Origin: Anaerolineae bacterium
GTDB lineage: Bacteria; Chloroflexota; Anaerolineae; Caldilineales; Caldilineaceae
NCBI GenBank assembly: GCA_030432295.1
Contig: JAUIHI010000014.1
Span: forward strand, 1 to 64,000
DNA length: 64,000 nt
Reading direction: 5' to 3'
Below, piece after piece: positions 2,641-41,469 of this stretch. The notes under the pieces were generated by a model that worked only from the letters and a program-made list of their open reading frames with translations, ran no database searches and had not been told where the DNA came from. The position numbers and the translations under genes are program-made. Within the stretch, counting starts at the first letter, position 1, and the number at the start of each line of letters is the position of its first letter.

Positions 2641-3463
2641 CCCTCACCCCAGCGCCTACGGCGCGCCCCTCTCCCTGCCGCGGCGTTTTTGGGTTGGGTA
2701 AATTGGTCGGGCTGGGAGAGGGGAGTTTGCCGATGACGATTCGGTGGGTTTCGGTGTGGCGGGGTCGATGACGAAATGTACGAATCGTGCCCATCCCCCA
2801 TCCTCTCCCAGCGCAAGCAACCACACAGACGAACCAACACTATCCCTGGGAGAGGAGGGGGCGTCCCTCAAACAGCCGACCTTCCCGTCAATGGGTAGGG
2901 GGTGGTGAGGGCCTGCTGCGGCGTTCCGCCCTCACCCCCACCCCCTCTCCCTGCCAGGACATTGGCGGGGCGGGGTCTGTCGGTCGGGCTGGGAGAGGGG
3001 AGTTTGTCGATGGCGATTGGGGTGGGTTGCGGCGGGAAGGGGCCGATGACGAATAGCACCAATCGTCCCTGACCCCCTCCTCTCCCAGAGCAACCAACAA
3101 CACAGACGAACCAGCACCACCTCTGGGAGAGGAGGGGGCGTCCCTCAAACAGACGGCCTTCCCAGCAACTGCTAGGGGGTGGTGAGGGCAGCCGCGCCAG
3201 ATACCCCTCACCCCCGCCCCCTCTCCCTGCCGCGGCGTTTTTGGGTTGGGTGAATTGGTAGGGCCAGGAGAGGGGAGGCTGTCAATGACGTTTGAGCAGA
3301 TTTCGGCGCGACGGGGTCGATGACGAAGTACACCAATCGCCGCCGTTCCCCCTCCTCTCCCAGAGTGAATACCAACACAGACGAACCAGCACCACCTCTG
3401 GGAGAGGAGGGGGCGTCCCACCAACAACCGGCCTTCCCTCCGATGGGTAGGGGGTGGTGAGGG
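2641..3463. repeat. Three tandem copies of a ~265-bp palindromic intergenic element
   Basis: This fills the gap between the STAND gene and mutS. Copies lie at 2641-2911, 2929-3188 and 3205-3463. Each starts with CCCTCACCCC...CCCTCTCCCTGCC and ends with TAGGGGGTGGTGAGGG, so the termini are inverted. Shared internal blocks include GGGAGAGGGGAG, a GATGACGA motif, CACAGACGAACCA and GGGAGAGGAGGGGGCGTCCC. Several arms can pair with each other. The copies differ by small indels and substitutions. No coding potential was accepted. It resembles a REP/MITE-type non-autonomous element. Confidence 0.8.
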
Positions 3464-3558
3464 ACAGCCGCGCCGCTTCACCGCTCCCCGCTCGCCTTTG
3501 CCCCATCCCCCCGGCCTCGTCTATAATCCCAAGCAACCCCAGACGAGGAGAACCCGCA

Positions 3559-6324
3559 ATGGCCGAAGCCACCCCAATGCTCAAGCAATACCGCCAACTG
3601 AAGAAGCGCTTCCCCGACGCGATTCTGCTCTTTCGCCTGGGCGACTTCTACGAGATGTTCGACGACGACGCCCGGCTGATTTCCAAGCAATTGGGGCTGG
3701 TGCTGACCGGGCGGCGCTTTTCCAAAACCGTCAAAATGGCGATGTGCGGCGTCCCCTACCGCCAGTTGTCCGTCTACGTCTCCAAACTGCTGGAAAAAGG
3801 CCACAAAGTCGCGGTGGCCGACCAGATAGAGAGCGCGGGCAAAAGCCGGGGACTGATCGCCCGGGAGATCGTGCGGGTCATCACACCGGGCACAGTTGTG
3901 GAGGAGGCACTGCTGGCCGAGAAGAGCCAGAACTTCCTGGCCGCGCTGGCTCCGTCCGCCGACGCGCCATCGGGCAATGTCTGGGGGCTGGCTGCAGTGG
4001 ACCTCTCCACCGGCGAATTTGTCACCGCCCAGTTCAGCGGGGCCACGGGCTGGAGCCAACTGCTGGAAGAGATGAATGTCCTGCACCCCACCGAACTACT
4101 GCTGCCCGCGCCGCTGGTGGCAGACGAAGGCTGGCTGGCCGGTTTGGGCGATGTGCGCCCGGCCCGACTCTCCCCGCTGGACCCGGCCCACTTTGACCCC
4201 GCGGACGCCAGCCAGCGGCTGTTGACCCATTTCGCCGCTGCCTCGTTAGATGCCTACGGCTGCGCGGGGCTGCCCCAGGCCACAGCCGCGGCCGGCGCAG
4301 TTCTGGCCTATCTCCAGGAAAACCAACTCTCGAACCTGGCCCACCTGACCGGCCTGACCACCTACCGGGCCGAAGCTTGCGTCGGTCTGGACCCGGTGAC
4401 CCGGCGCAATCTGGAATTGACCGCCACCCTGCGCGACGGACGGGTGCAGGGCAGTCTGCTCGCGGTCCTCGACCGCACAACGACGGCGATGGGCGCGCGT
4501 CTCCTGCGCCGCTGGATTCAGCAGCCCCTGCTCGAATTGGCCCCAATCGTCGAGCGGCTGGACGCGGTGGAGGAGTTGAGCGGACAGCGGACGGATGACC
4601 GCAGACCGCAGACGGACGACGACGCAACTCGCAATTCGCCCCTCGCAACCGACAGATCGCAACCCACCCCGTTTTTACGCGCGGACCTTCGCAAACTACT
4701 CGACGGCGTGCACGATATGGAGCGCAGTGTGGGACGGGTCGGTTTTGGCACGGCCAATGCCCGGGATTTGGCCGGTCTGCGCCGCACCCTCAGCCGCATC
4801 CCCCGCATCAAAGGGCTGCTGGCTGGCGCGGCTTCGCCCCGGCTGGCCGCGCTCAACGCGGAGTTGGACCCGTTGCAGGATGTGGCCGGGCTGATCAGCG
4901 GGGCGCTGGTGGACGATCCGCCGATTCTGCTCAAAGAGGGCGGGCTGATCCGTCCCGGCTTCCACGAAGAATTGGGCCGACTGCGTGGGGCTGCGGCAGA
5001 CGGGCGGGATTGGCTGACCGCCTACGAGGCCGAGGAGCGGGAGCGCACTGGCATCCCCACCCTGCGCGTGCGCTACAACCAGATTTTCGGCTTCTTTGTG
5101 GAGGTCCCCCGCAGCAAAAGCAGCCTCGTCCCTGCCGAATACGAGCGGCGGGCCACCATCACCCACGCCGAGCGTTTTGTCACCCCGGCCCTGCGCAGCC
5201 GGGAGAGCGAAATTCTGGCCGCGGAGGATCGGGCCAACGAACTGGAGTACGAGCTTTTTGTGGAATTGCGCCAGCAGGTGGCTGCCCACAGTCAGCGCCT
5301 GCTGGCCGCGGCCCGGCTCCTGGCTGAATTGGATGTGCTGGCTAGCCTGGCCGAGAGCGCTGTCCACCACAACTATTGCCGCCCGGTGGTGGACGAGAGC
5401 AATACCATTCAGATTGAGGAGGGACGCCATCCGGTGGTGGAGCAACTGCTCACCGAAGGCAAGCGCTACGTGCCCAACGACATCGCCCTGGACGGGGAAG
5501 GGCGGCGGATGCTGATTCTGACCGGACCGAATATGAGCGGCAAAAGTGTGCTGACCCGCCAGGTGGTGCTGACTGTGCTGATGGCCCAGATGGGCAGCTT
5601 TGTGCCAGCCCGCTCCGCCCACATCGGGCTGGTGGATCGGATTTTTGTGCGGGCCGGGGCCAGCGACGACATCACCCAGGGGCGCTCGACTTTTCTGGTG
5701 GAGATGGACGAGACCGCCTACATTCTGCGCCACGCCACCGCCCGCAGTCTGGTGGTGCTGGACGAAGTGGGCCGAGGCACCTCCACCTACGACGGGATGG
5801 CCCTGGCCTGGGCCGTGGGCGAGGAACTCCACGACGGCATTGGCTGTCGCAGCCTCTTTGCCACCCATTTCCACGAATTGACGGCCCTGGCCGACCAGTT
5901 GCCGGGGGCATCCAACGCCAGCCTGGCCGTGCGCGAACAGGGCCACGAAGTCGTCTTTCTGCATCGGCTGGTGGAAGGGGGCGCGGACCGCAGCTACGGC
6001 GTGCAGGTGGCCCGGCTGGCCGGTGTGCCAGAGCACGTCATCGAGCGGGCACGCGCGGTGATGGCCCGGCTGGAAGGGGAGAAGCAGTCCGCAAACAGTA
6101 CGCAGGCCGCAAACCGCGCACAGGCTGAGCCACCCCTGGCTTTGGCCGAAGTCAGCCCAGTCTATCGGACGGGAGGCGAAGTGCTGAGCAGTGGTGACGA
6201 CGAACTCTCCTGGGCGGTTCTGCGCGAGCTTTTCCGGCTGGACGTAGCGAATCTGACACCCATGCGCGCCCTGCTGCTGGTCAACGAATGGCAACAGCGG
6301 CTGCGGGAGGGGAGAGAGCAATGA
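3559..6324 (+). CDS. mutS: DNA mismatch repair protein MutS
   Basis: Recognises mismatches and small loops and recruits MutL. ATG 3559 is chosen because GAGGAG lies just upstream and the conserved start MLKQYRQLKKRFPDAILLFR follows seven residues later; the protein is 921 aa. The mismatch-contact motif is visible in GDFYEMF (Phe-Tyr-Glu). Then come the connector and lever domains, Walker A TGPNMSGKS at about 655 and Walker B LVVLDEVGRGTSTYDG at about 731, followed by the ATH.HEL segment. Two low-complexity inserts are unusual. Residues about 340-373, in the core region between VEEL and FLRADLRKLL, are encoded by repetitive GACGGA/GACCGCA words. A second, SANSTQAANRAQA, lies near 845. The stop overlaps the mutL start (ATGA), so the two are probably translationally coupled. 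Confidence 0.97.
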   Translation: MAEATPMLKQYRQLKKRFPDAILLFRLGDFYEMFDDDARLISKQLGLVLTGRRFSKTVKMAMCGVPYRQLSVYVSKLLEKGHKVAVADQIESAGKSRGLIAREIVRVITPGTVVEEALLAEKSQNFLAALAPSADAPSGNVWGLAAVDLSTGEFVTAQFSGATGWSQLLEEMNVLHPTELLLPAPLVADEGWLAGLGDVRPARLSPLDPAHFDPADASQRLLTHFAAASLDAYGCAGLPQATAAAGAVLAYLQENQLSNLAHLTGLTTYRAEACVGLDPVTRRNLELTATLRDGRVQGSLLAVLDRTTTAMGARLLRRWIQQPLLELAPIVERLDAVEELSGQRTDDRRPQTDDDATRNSPLATDRSQPTPFLRADLRKLLDGVHDMERSVGRVGFGTANARDLAGLRRTLSRIPRIKGLLAGAASPRLAALNAELDPLQDVAGLISGALVDDPPILLKEGGLIRPGFHEELGRLRGAAADGRDWLTAYEAEERERTGIPTLRVRYNQIFGFFVEVPRSKSSLVPAEYERRATITHAERFVTPALRSRESEILAAEDRANELEYELFVELRQQVAAHSQRLLAAARLLAELDVLASLAESAVHHNYCRPVVDESNTIQIEEGRHPVVEQLLTEGKRYVPNDIALDGEGRRMLILTGPNMSGKSVLTRQVVLTVLMAQMGSFVPARSAHIGLVDRIFVRAGASDDITQGRSTFLVEMDETAYILRHATARSLVVLDEVGRGTSTYDGMALAWAVGEELHDGIGCRSLFATHFHELTALADQLPGASNASLAVREQGHEVVFLHRLVEGGADRSYGVQVARLAGVPEHVIERARAVMARLEGEKQSANSTQAANRAQAEPPLALAEVSPVYRTGGEVLSSGDDELSWAVLRELFRLDVANLTPMRALLLVNEWQQRLREGREQ
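4577..4675 (+). repeat. Short-word repeat inserted in frame in mutS
   Basis: The DNA is built of words such as GCGGACAGCGGACGGATGACC and GACCGCAGACGGACGAC followed by CGCAACTCGCAATTCGCC. It encodes a hydrophilic stretch (SGQRTDDRRPQTDDD...) that most MutS proteins lack at this place. The same word family occurs between genes at 33545-33611 and inside the beta-galactosidase gene at about 22455-22600. This supports a dispersed element that has entered coding sequence without breaking the frame. Confidence 0.6.
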
Positions 6325-21276: not shown

Positions 21277-25080
<3,804 letters not shown>

Positions 25081-32447: not shown

Positions 32448-33548
32448 ATGCTTGCCACCCAACCTGCCCCCACCCGCAACGGACACAGCGCCGTGCGCGA
32501 GGGCATTGTGGACTGCGATGTCCACGTCTTCCCCCACAGCCTGGACGAGATCCGGGCCTTTATGGACGAACCCTGGCGCAGCCGCTTTTCCGGCGGCGGA
32601 CGGGGCTTCTACGGCAATCCGGTCCACGGCAGCCGCCAGGACGCCAAACCGCCTTCTGGCGGCCCATCCGGCTCGGACCCGGACTTTCTGCGCGAGCAGT
32701 TGATCGATCTCTACGGCATGGCCTACGCCATCTGCCTGCCCCGGGCCTTCTGCAACCACCACCCGGACCCGGACTTGGGCAACGCCATCGCCGCTGCCTA
32801 CAACGAATGGCTGGCCGCCACCTGGCTGGGCGAATATAACGCCGACGGCGTCTTCAAAGGCTCGATTACCGTCAACCCCCAGGACCCGGCAGCCGCGGCC
32901 GCAGAGATCGACAAATGGGGCAGCCATCCCCATTTCGTCCAGGTGATGACCGATTCCGGTTCCCGCGCCCCCTTCGGCCAGCGCCAGTTCTACCCCATCT
33001 ACGCGGCCTGCGAGCGCCACGGCCTGCCCTTCGCCATCCACCCCGGCACGGACGGGATGGGGATCAACCAGCAGCCCAGCCCCGGCTATCCCACCCACTA
33101 TATCGAATGGCACACGCTTCTGTCAGTCGGCTTCCAGGCCCATCTGGTCAGCTTCCTGACCGAAGGGGTCTTCGAACGCTTCCCCGGCTTTCGGGTGGTG
33201 CTGGTGGAAGGGGGCGTGGCCTGGGTGGCTCCCCTGCTCTGGCGGCTGGACGCGGAGTGGAAGGCCCTGCGCCCGGAAGTGCCCTGGGTGCGCAAGCCGC
33301 CCTCGGCCTATCTGCGCGAGCACGTGCGGGTGAGCAGCCAGCCTTTGGAACGCCCCGACAACGACAAACATCTGCTGCAAATGTTGGAGATGATGGACGC
33401 GGAGCACATTCTGATGTTTGCCAGCGACTATCCCCACTGGGATTTCGACTCGCCCACCCACGCCTTCCCCAAACTGCCGGATGCCCTGCACCGGCGAATT
33501 TTTCGGGAGAACGCACTGGAGTTTTATGGGTTGGCAGCAGACCACTGA
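32448..33548 (+). CDS. Amidohydrolase family 2 (TIM-barrel metal-dependent hydrolase)
   Basis: 366 aa; ATG 32448 follows CACAGGAGAAACCCA. DCDVHVFPHSLDE near residue 24 supplies the first metal site (D-x-H in this clan), GLPFAIHPGTDG carries the barrel histidine, and FASDYPHWDFDSP the C-terminal metal Asp. The family includes ACMSD-like decarboxylases and LigJ-type hydratases that act on ring-cleavage products. The Rieske protein gene starts 89 bp downstream, which favours a role in aromatic or heterocyclic compound turnover. Substrate unknown. Confidence 0.85.
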   Translation: MLATQPAPTRNGHSAVREGIVDCDVHVFPHSLDEIRAFMDEPWRSRFSGGGRGFYGNPVHGSRQDAKPPSGGPSGSDPDFLREQLIDLYGMAYAICLPRAFCNHHPDPDLGNAIAAAYNEWLAATWLGEYNADGVFKGSITVNPQDPAAAAAEIDKWGSHPHFVQVMTDSGSRAPFGQRQFYPIYAACERHGLPFAIHPGTDGMGINQQPSPGYPTHYIEWHTLLSVGFQAHLVSFLTEGVFERFPGFRVVLVEGGVAWVAPLLWRLDAEWKALRPEVPWVRKPPSAYLREHVRVSSQPLERPDNDKHLLQMLEMMDAEHILMFASDYPHWDFDSPTHAFPKLPDALHRRIFRENALEFYGLAADH

Positions 33549-33611
33549 CGGTAGACAGTAGACGGTGGACGACCGACCGCTGACTGCCGTCCGCCGTCCG
33601 CTGTCAGTTAC
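33545..33611. repeat. Short-word repeat, intergenic copy
   Basis: GACGGTAGACAGTAGACGG, GACCGACCGCTGACTGCCG and TCCGCCGTCCGCTGTCAG run together directly after the amidohydrolase stop. The same words form in-frame insertions in mutS and the beta-galactosidase gene. Confidence 0.7.
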
Positions 33612-33637: not shown

Positions 33638-34045
33638 ATGGCGAAGTACACAATCTGCCGGGTGAGTGAGCTGCCACCCGGCGAACGAAAAATCATCGAA
33701 GCAGGCTCCCGCACAATCGGCGTTTTCAACGTCAACGGCGCGTTCCACGCCATCCGCAACCAGTGCCCCCACCAGAACGCGCCCCTCTGCCGGGGCATCA
33801 TCACCGGCACAACCCTGCCCAGCCAGCCCGGCGAATACATCTGGGCCAAAGACGGCGAGATCGTCCGCTGCCCCTGGCACGGCTGGGAGTTCGACATCAC
33901 CACTGGGCGCTCCGTTTTCAATCCCCACAAAATGCGGGTCAAGAATTACGAAGTGACCGTCGAGCCTGTGCCGGGGGAAGATGTGGAGTCGGTGGAGAGT
34001 TTCACAGTCACTGTCGAAGACGGCTGGGTGATTTTGCACGCATAA
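33638..34045 (+). CDS. Rieske [2Fe-2S] protein
   Basis: 135 aa; AAAGGA lies upstream of ATG 33638. Cluster ligands are Cys43-Pro-His45 (NQCPHQNAPLCRG) and Cys78-Pro-Trp-His81 (IVRCPWHGWEFDITTGRS). The segment between the two motifs is longer than in minimal ferredoxins. Small Rieske proteins of this form serve as electron carriers or as the small component of ring-hydroxylating systems; no oxygenase alpha subunit is in view. Probably co-transcribed with the amidohydrolase gene. Confidence 0.92.
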   Translation: MAKYTICRVSELPPGERKIIEAGSRTIGVFNVNGAFHAIRNQCPHQNAPLCRGIITGTTLPSQPGEYIWAKDGEIVRCPWHGWEFDITTGRSVFNPHKMRVKNYEVTVEPVPGEDVESVESFTVTVEDGWVILHA

Positions 34046-39200: not shown

Positions 39201-41469
39201 AGCGCAATGGAGCTTTATCGTCAGCAATGGCGGAAACATCAGCGCCACAGACTTTACTGTCGTCAACGAACTGCCCTTTGGCACGGAATTCTATACCTAC
39301 ACCCTAACCAGCAGCGCGCCCCAGAGTGTGAAAGATTCCATCACCTATAAGACAGGCACGTTGGCGGGCGGGCGCAGTGTCGTCACCTTTACAGTGCCTT
39401 CCACACCGGGTCTGCCCAACGGCAACCGGCTGACTTTTGATATCGAAGCGCTGGTCAACGGCTGTTCCCTGCCCGACGACGTAACGATCCGCCTGACCAA
39501 CACCTGTGGCGGTGTGGGCGGCGTCTGCCAGGGGACCAGTGTTGGAACCGTGGAGCTATTGCCCGGCGCGTCCTCCCTGCTCAGCGCCAACAACCAGACG
39601 GCCAATCTGCCCCTGTGCGAGACGGGCACTGTCCAGTTGCGGGTGAAGAACACCTCCGGGCGGGCGGTCGAATATAATTTGACCATCACCGATACAATTA
39701 CAAATGCTACTTTTGTCAATGCTTCCACACTGGTCAGTGTGGTGGATGGCGCCGGCGCGCCGATTGTGGGCACAACCAGCGGCGTGCCGTTGACGAACAT
39801 CCCCTTTGCGCCGGCCATCTCCACCGCCGGTGTAGCCTCCACCCTCGTCTGGCGGGTAACAGATTACGTCTCCGGCACGGCAGCCTATGACGTACTGGCC
39901 CAACGCAACGCCAAAGACGAAATCCGCATCGATTTCGACGTCCTCACCGGCTGCGACGGTGCACCGGTGGGGGTACGCAGCGCAGGCTCGGCGGTGGATG
40001 CCTGTGGTGCGCCTCTCGGCTTCCTGGAAAGTTCCAAATCTCTGATCAGTGATTCCCCGATACTGGAAATCACCAAACAGGTGCAGAACGTTACCACTGG
40101 CAGTGCCCTGGGCGGTGATACCAGCGCCGCACCCATCTTCGCTGGGGTGGGAGACCAATTGGTCTGGAATGTGACAGTGAAGAATACAGGACCCCAGCGG
40201 GTGACGAATCTCTTCACAGAAGATCAGTTGCCCAGCAATTTTACGGTTAGCAGCGTCAGCCCAACCGACTACACCACCACCGGATCGCCCCCCTTCCTTG
40301 AATGGCATGACGGGGGCGGCACGGAATTGGCCGCCAACGGCGGCACTATCACCTACGCCATCACCGGAACCCTGGCGGCTGGCGCCTGCGCCTTCTCCCC
40401 ACTGGAAAACGAAGCCAGCAGCCGCTTCGCCTGTGGCCTCGGTGATATCTGCTTCAGCAAGGGTGTCACCACCACCGCCTACATCAGCACCCGACCCAAC
40501 TTTACCATCAGCGCCTCCAACGCCACCATCCAGGAGTGCGAGGGCGGGCCGTTGACCGTCGCCATCAACAACACCGGCGCGCGGGCCTCGAATGTAGTGG
40601 TCACCTATACCCTGCCCGCCAATATGGCCTACGCCAGTTTGGACGGAGCCAGCAGCCCCACGCCCACCAGCCAGCCCGCCGTGGGCGCAACCGGTGTCAT
40701 CACCTTTGGCTATGCCAGCTTCCCCGGTGAGACGAATGGCTCTCTCCAATTCAATGTGGCAAATGCGACGGGGTTTTGCCCCGCGCCGGGCAGCAACACC
40801 GGCACGGCTGACCTGCGCTATCAGAACACCTGTAGCACGGACTTCGACGATGTGGCCGCGGCCAACGCCACGATTACTGTGCAGCGTCCCACCCTCTCGA
40901 CGGCGACAGTGACGCCGGTTCAGCAGGTAGTCGTCGCGGGCCAGCGCTACACCTGGACGGTGACTGTACCCAACAGCGGAACCGGCATTGCCCGCAATCT
41001 GGTCATCACTGAAACCCTGGACGCGGGCTGGGGCAGCATCACCGCCATCAACGGCACGCCGGGTGGGACTGCGCCGACAATCGATGCGGGCAACCGCACA
41101 ATTGTCTGGGATGTGGGCACACTCAACAACGGCCAGACCTGGACGGCCACCTTCAGCGCAGTGGCTCTGGACGCCCAGCCTTCCTACCGCACGACGCTGG
41201 ACGTCACCACCGCCTGCGACAACGGCGGCTGTCCCCAGACGGTCCAGGCCATCACCTACAGTTCGGCCACACAGGGGGTTGGACAAGCAGATTTTTGGCT
41301 CGCCTGTGCGCATCGGCCAGCCCTTCACCTATACAATCAATTTCGACTTCTTCGGCGGGCGAACCTACAACAGCGCCGTTCTCACCGACACCCTGCCCAA
41401 ACTGGACGGAACCCTCGTCTTCAGCCCGACGGGTGTGACGATTGTCAACGAAAACAGCGGCGGCAATAG
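36280..41469 (+). CDS. Giant secreted repeat protein, N-terminal part (before frameshift)
   Basis: 1,729 codons from ATG 36280 (AGAGGAATACCC upstream). An N-terminal export signal (FAWLRMLIVFSMVITYLSPLAD) is followed by a long series of DUF11-like beta-sandwich units: ANPAPGQPFTIILSQGSG, LTVTKSPALQTATFGQVITWTVSLENTGQGTLYDAELTDTIG and similar. Cysteine-containing variants occur (C...NLTNRVDASW, CGSMSATIPVTVTNSGG). The family-like sequence stops at about 41270 (QAITYSSATQG); the remaining 64 codons to the stop at 41469 are out of frame. The true continuation is in the +1 frame from 41276. Bridging the frameshift would give one gene of 25.9 kb. Likely anchored on or released from the cell surface. 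Confidence 0.85.
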   Translation: MRPTNRTLSARRHDSRFAWLRMLIVFSMVITYLSPLADSAQGFFAGGVSVAAAAELPAQPQTAPSAAETTTSDIALGDGALGDGLLPAWAQSIDAPALAQATDDARMGSALLPDWFAAPTAPVESAGALEPSARLMAAGSCSSAGQLTMAMTVPAEVSMGNAAGDLFTVVVNNSGTAETTEARLLVTPSAGFDYLAGSAAASDGGPINVTVSPANPAPGQPFTIILSQGSGSRNDLDGGETITFNFRLTTNTDANSGQPLITTLQSGTGTPVTCKTATENIQVVRGNLTVTKSPALQTATFGQVITWTVSLENTGQGTLYDAELTDTIGAGYTGFSITPTPAPVDLAAGAKFDYTAQATINSCSNLTNRVDASWLLGNADGTATTSNTVNEIADVLLQIEDPNIVVDIGPLPTAAYCGSMSATIPVTVTNSGGAARNVFLTMASSGPAGTAVSVNSASAADWNESGNTLTYTPGTIGAGASVNFLVDVSTGNLCSAASLSLTLTPTYEDSCLLLQSTGTPDTETVTLPVEAPTLSVSKDGPTTMIAGNSYQYVVTVSGDNRQSIGPGGIAITDIVPSNLIIDSVSSSGSTPVTQNGQNLRWDLDTSGSGAFSEQFFIDVTVPGQGAGACGAGSSLINAVTAVADITCPECNLSADAEKESYIYDFLDPALNTFTKEATPIELCGPPSANVITATLQVGSGITWTNTIYTDTLGAGALGQAFTIVPGTVKVTVGGIDHTANVAINEGPPLSIDFGGLSAILGDFSATANIVIVYQIDGQPGTIAGGADNTVPTLFSQFQLNGPAQACDGGNIGYVAIPVKVSRGSLGVAVEPGTIQSCRLNTVTLTVNENTVNDLTDSIVVSFTTDATDIITPTAFTVGGGFTGQTPTVTQGTQADGRKVVTFTFPAAFDLTGSGTISFPLYRPCGTTAGLTADVAYLDRCDVPRTSSATGGTSTAQSNLTLFTTPNQFTVVEKKAQWSFIVSNGGNISATDFTVVNELPFGTEFYTYTLTSSAPQSVKDSITYKTGTLAGGRSVVTFTVPSTPGLPNGNRLTFDIEALVNGCSLPDDVTIRLTNTCGGVGGVCQGTSVGTVELLPGASSLLSANNQTANLPLCETGTVQLRVKNTSGRAVEYNLTITDTITNATFVNASTLVSVVDGAGAPIVGTTSGVPLTNIPFAPAISTAGVASTLVWRVTDYVSGTAAYDVLAQRNAKDEIRIDFDVLTGCDGAPVGVRSAGSAVDACGAPLGFLESSKSLISDSPILEITKQVQNVTTGSALGGDTSAAPIFAGVGDQLVWNVTVKNTGPQRVTNLFTEDQLPSNFTVSSVSPTDYTTTGSPPFLEWHDGGGTELAANGGTITYAITGTLAAGACAFSPLENEASSRFACGLGDICFSKGVTTTAYISTRPNFTISASNATIQECEGGPLTVAINNTGARASNVVVTYTLPANMAYASLDGASSPTPTSQPAVGATGVITFGYASFPGETNGSLQFNVANATGFCPAPGSNTGTADLRYQNTCSTDFDDVAAANATITVQRPTLSTATVTPVQQVVVAGQRYTWTVTVPNSGTGIARNLVITETLDAGWGSITAINGTPGGTAPTIDAGNRTIVWDVGTLNNGQTWTATFSAVALDAQPSYRTTLDVTTACDNGGCPQTVQAITYSSATQGVGQADFWLACAHRPALHLYNQFRLLRRANLQQRRSHRHPAQTGRNPRLQPDGCDDCQRKQRRQ

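Follow-up and report, generated by a model that had tools for sequence, protein, structure and literature searches.

Heptameric repeats have long been noted in bacteria, and we know of no explanation of their origin. Palindromic elements of the Rickettsia type represent one element family inserted at many sites. Among described systems, the nearest known kind to the arrays reported here is that of the heptameric convergent repeats of Xanthomonas and Nostoc, degenerate 7-nt units (GGGAATC and GGGGA(C/T)T, respectively) that occur chromosome-wide and mostly between co-directional genes (PMC4692102). In Xanthomonas they form convergent pairs with a preference for four units, and about a third of the Nostoc arrays are intragenic; one word family was studied per genome, and the repeats were seen as quadruplex formers (PMC4692102). 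The GGGACCG elements of Geobacter metallireducens, in the part of their description available to us, are four tandem heptads of one family, present in 49 copies in intergenic regions and within genes, and were proposed to be regulatory (PMC2700814). In Beggiatoaceae, TAACTGA heptads are abundant direct repeats, intergenic, placed upstream of start codons and scattered phylogenetically (PMC4679880). According to the excerpts available, the Rickettsia elements are transposable and lose their repeat identity over time (PMC6649704), and the tandem repeats of archaeal Borgs evolve fast and create disordered protein regions (PMC9879509).

The window, that is, the whole 64,000-nt stretch of DNA analysed (G000:C3:1-64000), is part of a 6.72-Mb genome in 61 contigs, and its mutS gene carries an in-frame segment built from such words. 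On balance, and with modest confidence, we favour the reading that this segment belongs, as a single slot, to a set of degenerate heptad/octad arrays spread over the genome, and that occupied slots have probably been rewritten repeatedly by whole-array replacement. Dispersed heptad arrays are already known from Xanthomonas, Nostoc, Geobacter and Beggiatoaceae; what is new here is the swapping of families at conserved in-frame slots. Searches of open-licence papers for Chloroflexi and Caldilineaceae turned up no description of such arrays. The features of mutS are the following.

3559–6324, + strand: mutS, encoding MutS domains I–V (Pfam)
4577–4675, + strand: in-frame word-array insert in mutS (MutS residues about 343–373)
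6085–6125, + strand: another short word array, lying in the C-terminal linker of MutS (tandem repeat finder, alignment), varying among relatives

The mutS insert consists of two word families side by side, GACNNNN heptads (GACGGATGACCGCAGACCGCAGACGGACGAC) followed directly by CGCAAYT heptads (CGCAACTCGCAATTCGCCCCTCGCAACC). An earlier note on this DNA had proposed an extra, word-coded loop at about residues 340–373 of MutS, and this loop was found, at about 343–373. Repeated words are indeed its material, but the unit is a heptad (octads occur elsewhere in the genome) and the segment holds two families, not one. Between the two flanking helices the segment measures exactly 13 aa in 84 of 92 MutS proteins, including those of Chloroflexota, Firmicutes, Nitrospira and Armatimonadetes, and it is thus absent from MutS of unrelated bacteria, as the earlier note had anticipated. 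In the same set, a length of 38–47 aa occurs only in this genus, and one sister-family member (G045) has 23 aa. E. coli MutS structures also align on both sides of it. As judged from these alignments, the insert is clean and in frame. An AlphaFold2 model built on a 20-sequence alignment has pLDDT below 50 at residues 346–369, between helices 327–341 and 372–382, and predicts a disordered loop between two helices. Residues 844–880, in the C-terminal linker, likewise have pLDDT below 50 in the AlphaFold2 model. The nearest named relatives of this MutS come from metagenome-assembled genomes (MAGs) labelled Caldilineaceae or Litorilinea aerophila.

The main statistics rest on a 704-kb sample, about one-tenth of the genome, composed of the 64-kb window, 400 kb of contig 16 and 240 kb of contig 18; at a later stage the sampling was extended by a 200-kb portion of C24 and a stretch of C20. 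Arrays were detected without a word model, by self-match at a fixed lag, with codon-block shuffles as the control. This search yielded 77 lag-7 arrays against 0.5 in shuffles and 32 lag-8 arrays against 1.0, while lags of 5, 10, 11 and 13 gave few arrays and lags of 6 and 9 a modest excess. Across the 6.72 Mb, the strict GAC pattern GACSGMHGACSGMHGAC had 66 matches versus 5 with the reversed control, and pattern GACSGCNGACSGCNGACSG had 131 in the same genome versus 2 for its control. The genome-wide excess of such words, expected by the earlier note, is therefore large. Genome-wide tandem 7-nt units (77 versus 0.5) are common to Xanthomonas, Nostoc and the present genome, to which octads are added here.

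About ten word families, heptads and octads, were distinguished in the 704-kb sample. The heptad families include GACSGCN, CCCCAAT, CAATACC, CGCAATT, CCGCATT, GTGAATA, GACACYT and AACAGTG, among others; the octad families are CGCAAAGA/CGCAGAGA, CACAAAGA, CAACCAAT and AATCTCCC. In the GAC family the unit is the degenerate heptad GACNNNN, with a period of seven and the first three bases constant. One family here, GGGGAYT, is identical in its word to that of Nostoc. By sequence it is also the only one with quadruplex-capable G-runs of the Xanthomonas/Nostoc type, which GAC words and most octads lack. Phylum-wide, GGGGAYT arrays were found in 6 of 121 genomes, with 18 matches in the genome studied and at most 4 in any other; this family is therefore largely lineage-bound. 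The periodicity recurs in other genera of the family with words particular to them (for example AGTGGTC in G033, CGAATGG or CGATACA in G017). The genome of another genus of the family, G020, has 112 GAC-word matches, and nearly all other family genomes outside the genus have none. Two word patterns were matched by 106 and 12 stretches of viral contigs; we draw no inference from these matches, as ordinary GC-rich coding DNA may also fit the GAC pattern. The Beggiatoaceae share with this lineage the abundance of heptads, and differ in having direct, intergenic repeats of one word.

Beyond mutS, the window contains the following sites.

1880–1925, − strand: CCCCAAT-type (ATTGGGG) word array in the NB-ARC/STAND ORF 407–2548
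21277–24750 (end also given as 24795), − strand: GH2 beta-galactosidase host gene (Pfam GH2 domains, gene call)
22456–22493, − strand: one arm of a GAC-word hairpin in the GH2 gene, at aa about 718, coding for 13 residues
22562–22595, − strand: the other arm of this hairpin, at aa about 752, coding for 12 residues
33545–33611, no strand assigned: intergenic, imperfect GAC-word hairpin, flanked by an ORF end at 33548 and an ORF start at 33638

Two further proposals of the earlier note hold at these sites: GAC-type words do form the intergenic spacer at 33545–33611, as an imperfect hairpin of GACNNNN words, and those it saw at about residues 717–765 of the beta-galactosidase are present as the two inverted arms. 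The words at 1880–1925 are also there, but they are not the separate phenomenon that had been supposed: they belong to another word family of the same system, and CCCAAT words occur in the same MutS insert of relatives. Clean insertion, which had been expected for both MutS and GH2 from homologue alignments, was borne out for MutS. When GH2 was aligned with relatives, the insert exceeded the length seen in most other genera by about 17 aa; at this position G004 carries a GAC-word hairpin, and G006 a shorter loop that lacks words. Slots can therefore also be lost or gained. GH2 residues about 889–946 give a weak match to Effector-associated domain 7, under the Pfam cut-off.

Most arrays are short hairpins with about four 7- or 8-nt words per side and a short loop. 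An inverted partner lies within about 110 nt of 46 of 93 elements, versus 2 of 93 when the arm is set in the surroundings of another element. GAC-family arms have four words in 21 of 25 cases on the left and 18 of 25 on the right. Of 145 word hairpins from this genome, genus relatives and other genera (examples are L009, L018, L051 8696 and window 33545–33611), 130 have a left arm richer in G and 13 one richer in C, compared with 135:95 for ordinary inverted repeats from the same DNA. The G/purine-rich strand therefore points to the hairpin centre from both sides. Both the convergent pairing and the four-unit preference of the Xanthomonas repeats are thus seen here as well. Four tandem heptads in and between genes are also shared with Geobacter, whose available description contains no account of frame, protein effect or slot turnover (PMC2700814).

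Is the hairpin a fixed element? The inner core GACGAAC...GTTCGTC recurs in this genome, with a loop of 13 nt in 20 of 49 cases and of 24–25 nt in 13. These lengths are about one helical turn apart, and two loop-length classes would fit a protein binding both arms. A fixed centre was seen only in this core subfamily, and no fixed element consensus was found overall. At variable positions the two arms of a hairpin match at 0.574, versus 0.504 for arms of other hairpins (sd 0.029); maintenance of perfect palindromes is not supported, because this coupling is weak.

The hairpin form and the in-frame entry into housekeeping genes recall Rickettsia, and selfish palindromes of this type are a conceivable, if doubtful, source: each family would be a mobile, transposing hairpin that inserts into genes in frame and later decays, a few tolerant loops being hit repeatedly. 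The recurrent core with its loops of 13 or 24–25 nt speaks for such a source, as does a clean presence/absence difference between G006 and the genome studied, in which a 217-nt stretch (G006 L273 1994–2210, about 100 nt of other DNA flanked by CGTATTG/CAATACG arms) is cleanly absent at L269 5727. However, sister species carry different families at the same slots in nearly every case, which would demand repeated loss and re-entry there; copies of one family differ widely in their words, neither a target duplication nor a link to a transposase was observed, and classical transposition predicts a fixed element at new sites, not new content at old ones. As regards REP/RAYT elements, which go with a REP-type Y1 transposase, the genome has seven Y1_Tnp matches, with arrays near some of them and none near two, and no clear concentration of arrays at Y1 genes. 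The likeness to Rickettsia put forward by the earlier note accordingly stands for in-frame palindromic DNA in protein genes (CarB, HisC, TrpF and GH2 here), function being kept in Rickettsia. As far as the arrays were compared, it fails in that no one alignable family is seen: about ten families of 7- and 8-nt words form the arrays, and their content changes at fixed slots, with other families in sister species. The comparison is best taken as a fair analogy and not as identity.

The polarity, the single-arm arrays and the composites described below would also be accounted for by end-healing scars, in which both 3' ends of a double-strand break are extended with G-rich words by a template-dependent polymerase, as at telomeres, and are then joined into convergent arrays. 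So would the presence of one family in both arms with loose coupling (0.574 versus 0.504). We nevertheless regard this origin as highly improbable, as it leaves unexplained both the continued occupation of the same slots and the conserved loop lengths of the GAC family.

The arrays are dispersed, depleted in ORFs and yet present in many of them: 24 of the 109 lag-7 and lag-8 arrays lie within ORFs, though 83% of the sample is coding by our simple home-made gene caller, and the rest are intergenic or at gene edges. Of 72 intergenic elements, 60 lie between co-directional genes and 5 between divergent genes. A mostly co-directional intergenic location, with depletion in ORFs and between divergent genes, is again common to these arrays and to those of Xanthomonas and Nostoc; hairpins placed between co-directional genes may affect how transcripts end or how stable they are. 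The hosts among ORFs include MutS, CarB (two slots), a HisC-like aminotransferase, TrpF, alanine racemase (Alr), HMG-CoA reductase and GH2, together with an FAD/Fe-S oxidoreductase, a xanthine-dehydrogenase-type protein, glycosyltransferase-like membrane proteins, NB-ARC/STAND proteins and a threonine synthase named from sequence only. In single in-gene arrays on contigs 3, 16 and 18, the coding strand is nearly always A/C-rich (CCCCAAT, GACCGCA, CGCAATT, ACGCAGAG) and the reverse is rare.

The comparison of slots across the genus covered MutS, CarB, HisC and TrpF, and the lengths of 23 inserts, at four slots, were determined. In these four proteins the position of the insert is shared by all genus members found, each of which has one, and all 23 inserts, despite differing content, have a length that is a multiple of three and an open frame. 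Genome repeats do lie within ORFs, housekeeping genes included, without loss of frame, as the earlier note held. Some of the relatives are incomplete MAGs. An assembly artefact was ruled out, because several independently assembled MAGs carry in-frame inserts at the same slots. Multiples of three with open frames are as expected if the inserts are translated, and the peptides they would encode in CarB, HisC or MutS include IGDWGLG and NPQSPISNPQSP. Removal of the segments before or during translation, as intron-like or bypass elements, is very hard to credit in this light: introns, inteins and bypass elements need not stay open and in frame, and skipping or splicing would not require what all 23 inserts show. 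An Rfam scan of three array-rich stretches (60 kb with many arrays) also matched no family. Removal has in its favour that the segments are hairpins within essential genes, as are some yeast mitochondrial bypass elements, which are mentioned in the available part of PMC6649704.

Mean identity of the flanking DNA is 76–88% per gene, and that of the inserts ranges from 12% to 85%. At CarB slot 2, the genome studied has GACGGCA words, G006 and G001 have GGGGACT-type hairpins, G005 has GCGAGGG and G004 a composite array. At CarB slot 1, GAGGGGC/GAGTTGC heptads of this genome correspond to GGGGAYC in G006 and G001 and, in G005 and G004, to AATCTCCC-family octads; several other family members have further word-like inserts there. 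The MutS slot holds, across the genus, GAC or AACAGTG words and then CCCCAAT-type or CGCAACT words. In HisC and TrpF the slots mostly retain words of the GGGGAYT family or variants of them (the G002 HisC hairpin, for example, has GGCGAYT in both its arms), and swapping is therefore not universal. Ten elements of this genome have orthologous flanks in the stretches of relatives that were compared, and by reading of the alignments eight of these sites are occupied, four by the same family and four by another; one of the latter four shows a switch from heptads to octads in an intergenic slot, and the intergenic slot comparison rests on ten sites. Read from these alignments, slots persist while their word content is replaced, heptad by octad included. 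The contrast with Xanthomonas and Nostoc lies in the ten or so families, the octads, the in-frame slots in core genes and the family swaps at conserved slots. Borgs, as far as their available description goes, have direct tandem repeats on extrachromosomal elements, whereas here a bacterial chromosome carries words of 7–8 nt, not divisible by three, mostly in inverted pairs.

Under local replication slippage, each slot would be an ordinary simple-sequence repeat, unstable in length and growing, shrinking and drifting where it stands. The graded HisC words (GGGGAYT, GGCGAYT, GGATATT) look like such drift, and a period of seven is common in long bacterial repeats, for which polymerase slippage has been proposed in the available part of PMC4679880. 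Slippage alone, however, does not readily explain the same words at many unlinked sites, one family in both arms, or heptad arrays replaced by octads at one slot, and we rate it improbable as the whole explanation.

Some process seems to rewrite slots without breaking genes, and we infer that occupied slots would be rewritten repeatedly via replacement of whole arrays. New arrays would be copied or inserted preferentially into existing ones, by ectopic exchange between word arrays or by nested insertion with later loss of the old arms, and slippage, together with copying from one arm to the other, could then homogenise them locally. Within genes, survival would be limited to versions that preserve the frame, contain no stop and lie in flexible surface loops; these are presumably translated as short disordered loops of which no catalytic role is expected. 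Repeated rewriting is supported by the lag-7 and lag-8 excess, the many families, the inverted partners, the polarity, the clean MutS insert, the disordered loop predicted for it and the slot swaps. Composite or nested arrays, which look like arrays within or beside older arrays (L105 and L107 in CarB, L122 in HisC), are the expected intermediates and also support whole-array replacement. For the replaced slots no donor array could be identified, and neither an enzyme nor a targeting signal was found. We consider it unlikely that a dedicated process writes 7–8 nt words at fixed slots, whether by slot-targeted cassette exchange or by extending broken ends with G-rich words, as at telomeres, and then joining them, with content rewritten between species and the carB, mutS, hisC and trpF slots kept in frame.

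The sister species constitute a natural experiment, in that slots are shared, flanks can be aligned and words have been replaced, in places even 7-mers by 8-mers; the making and swapping of arrays are therefore directly testable. The arrays are also a source of new disordered loops in core enzymes of mismatch repair and of carbamoyl-phosphate, histidine and tryptophan synthesis, loops that ordinary gene alignments would treat as noise.

Longer repeats occur in the window as well. Just upstream of mutS, positions 2666–3475 contain about three copies of a 277-bp imperfect tandem repeat, the copy content of which differs in one relative, and a single ORF, which would encode about 6,976 aa, spans positions 41279–62209 and contains long repeats of 342 and 438 bp.
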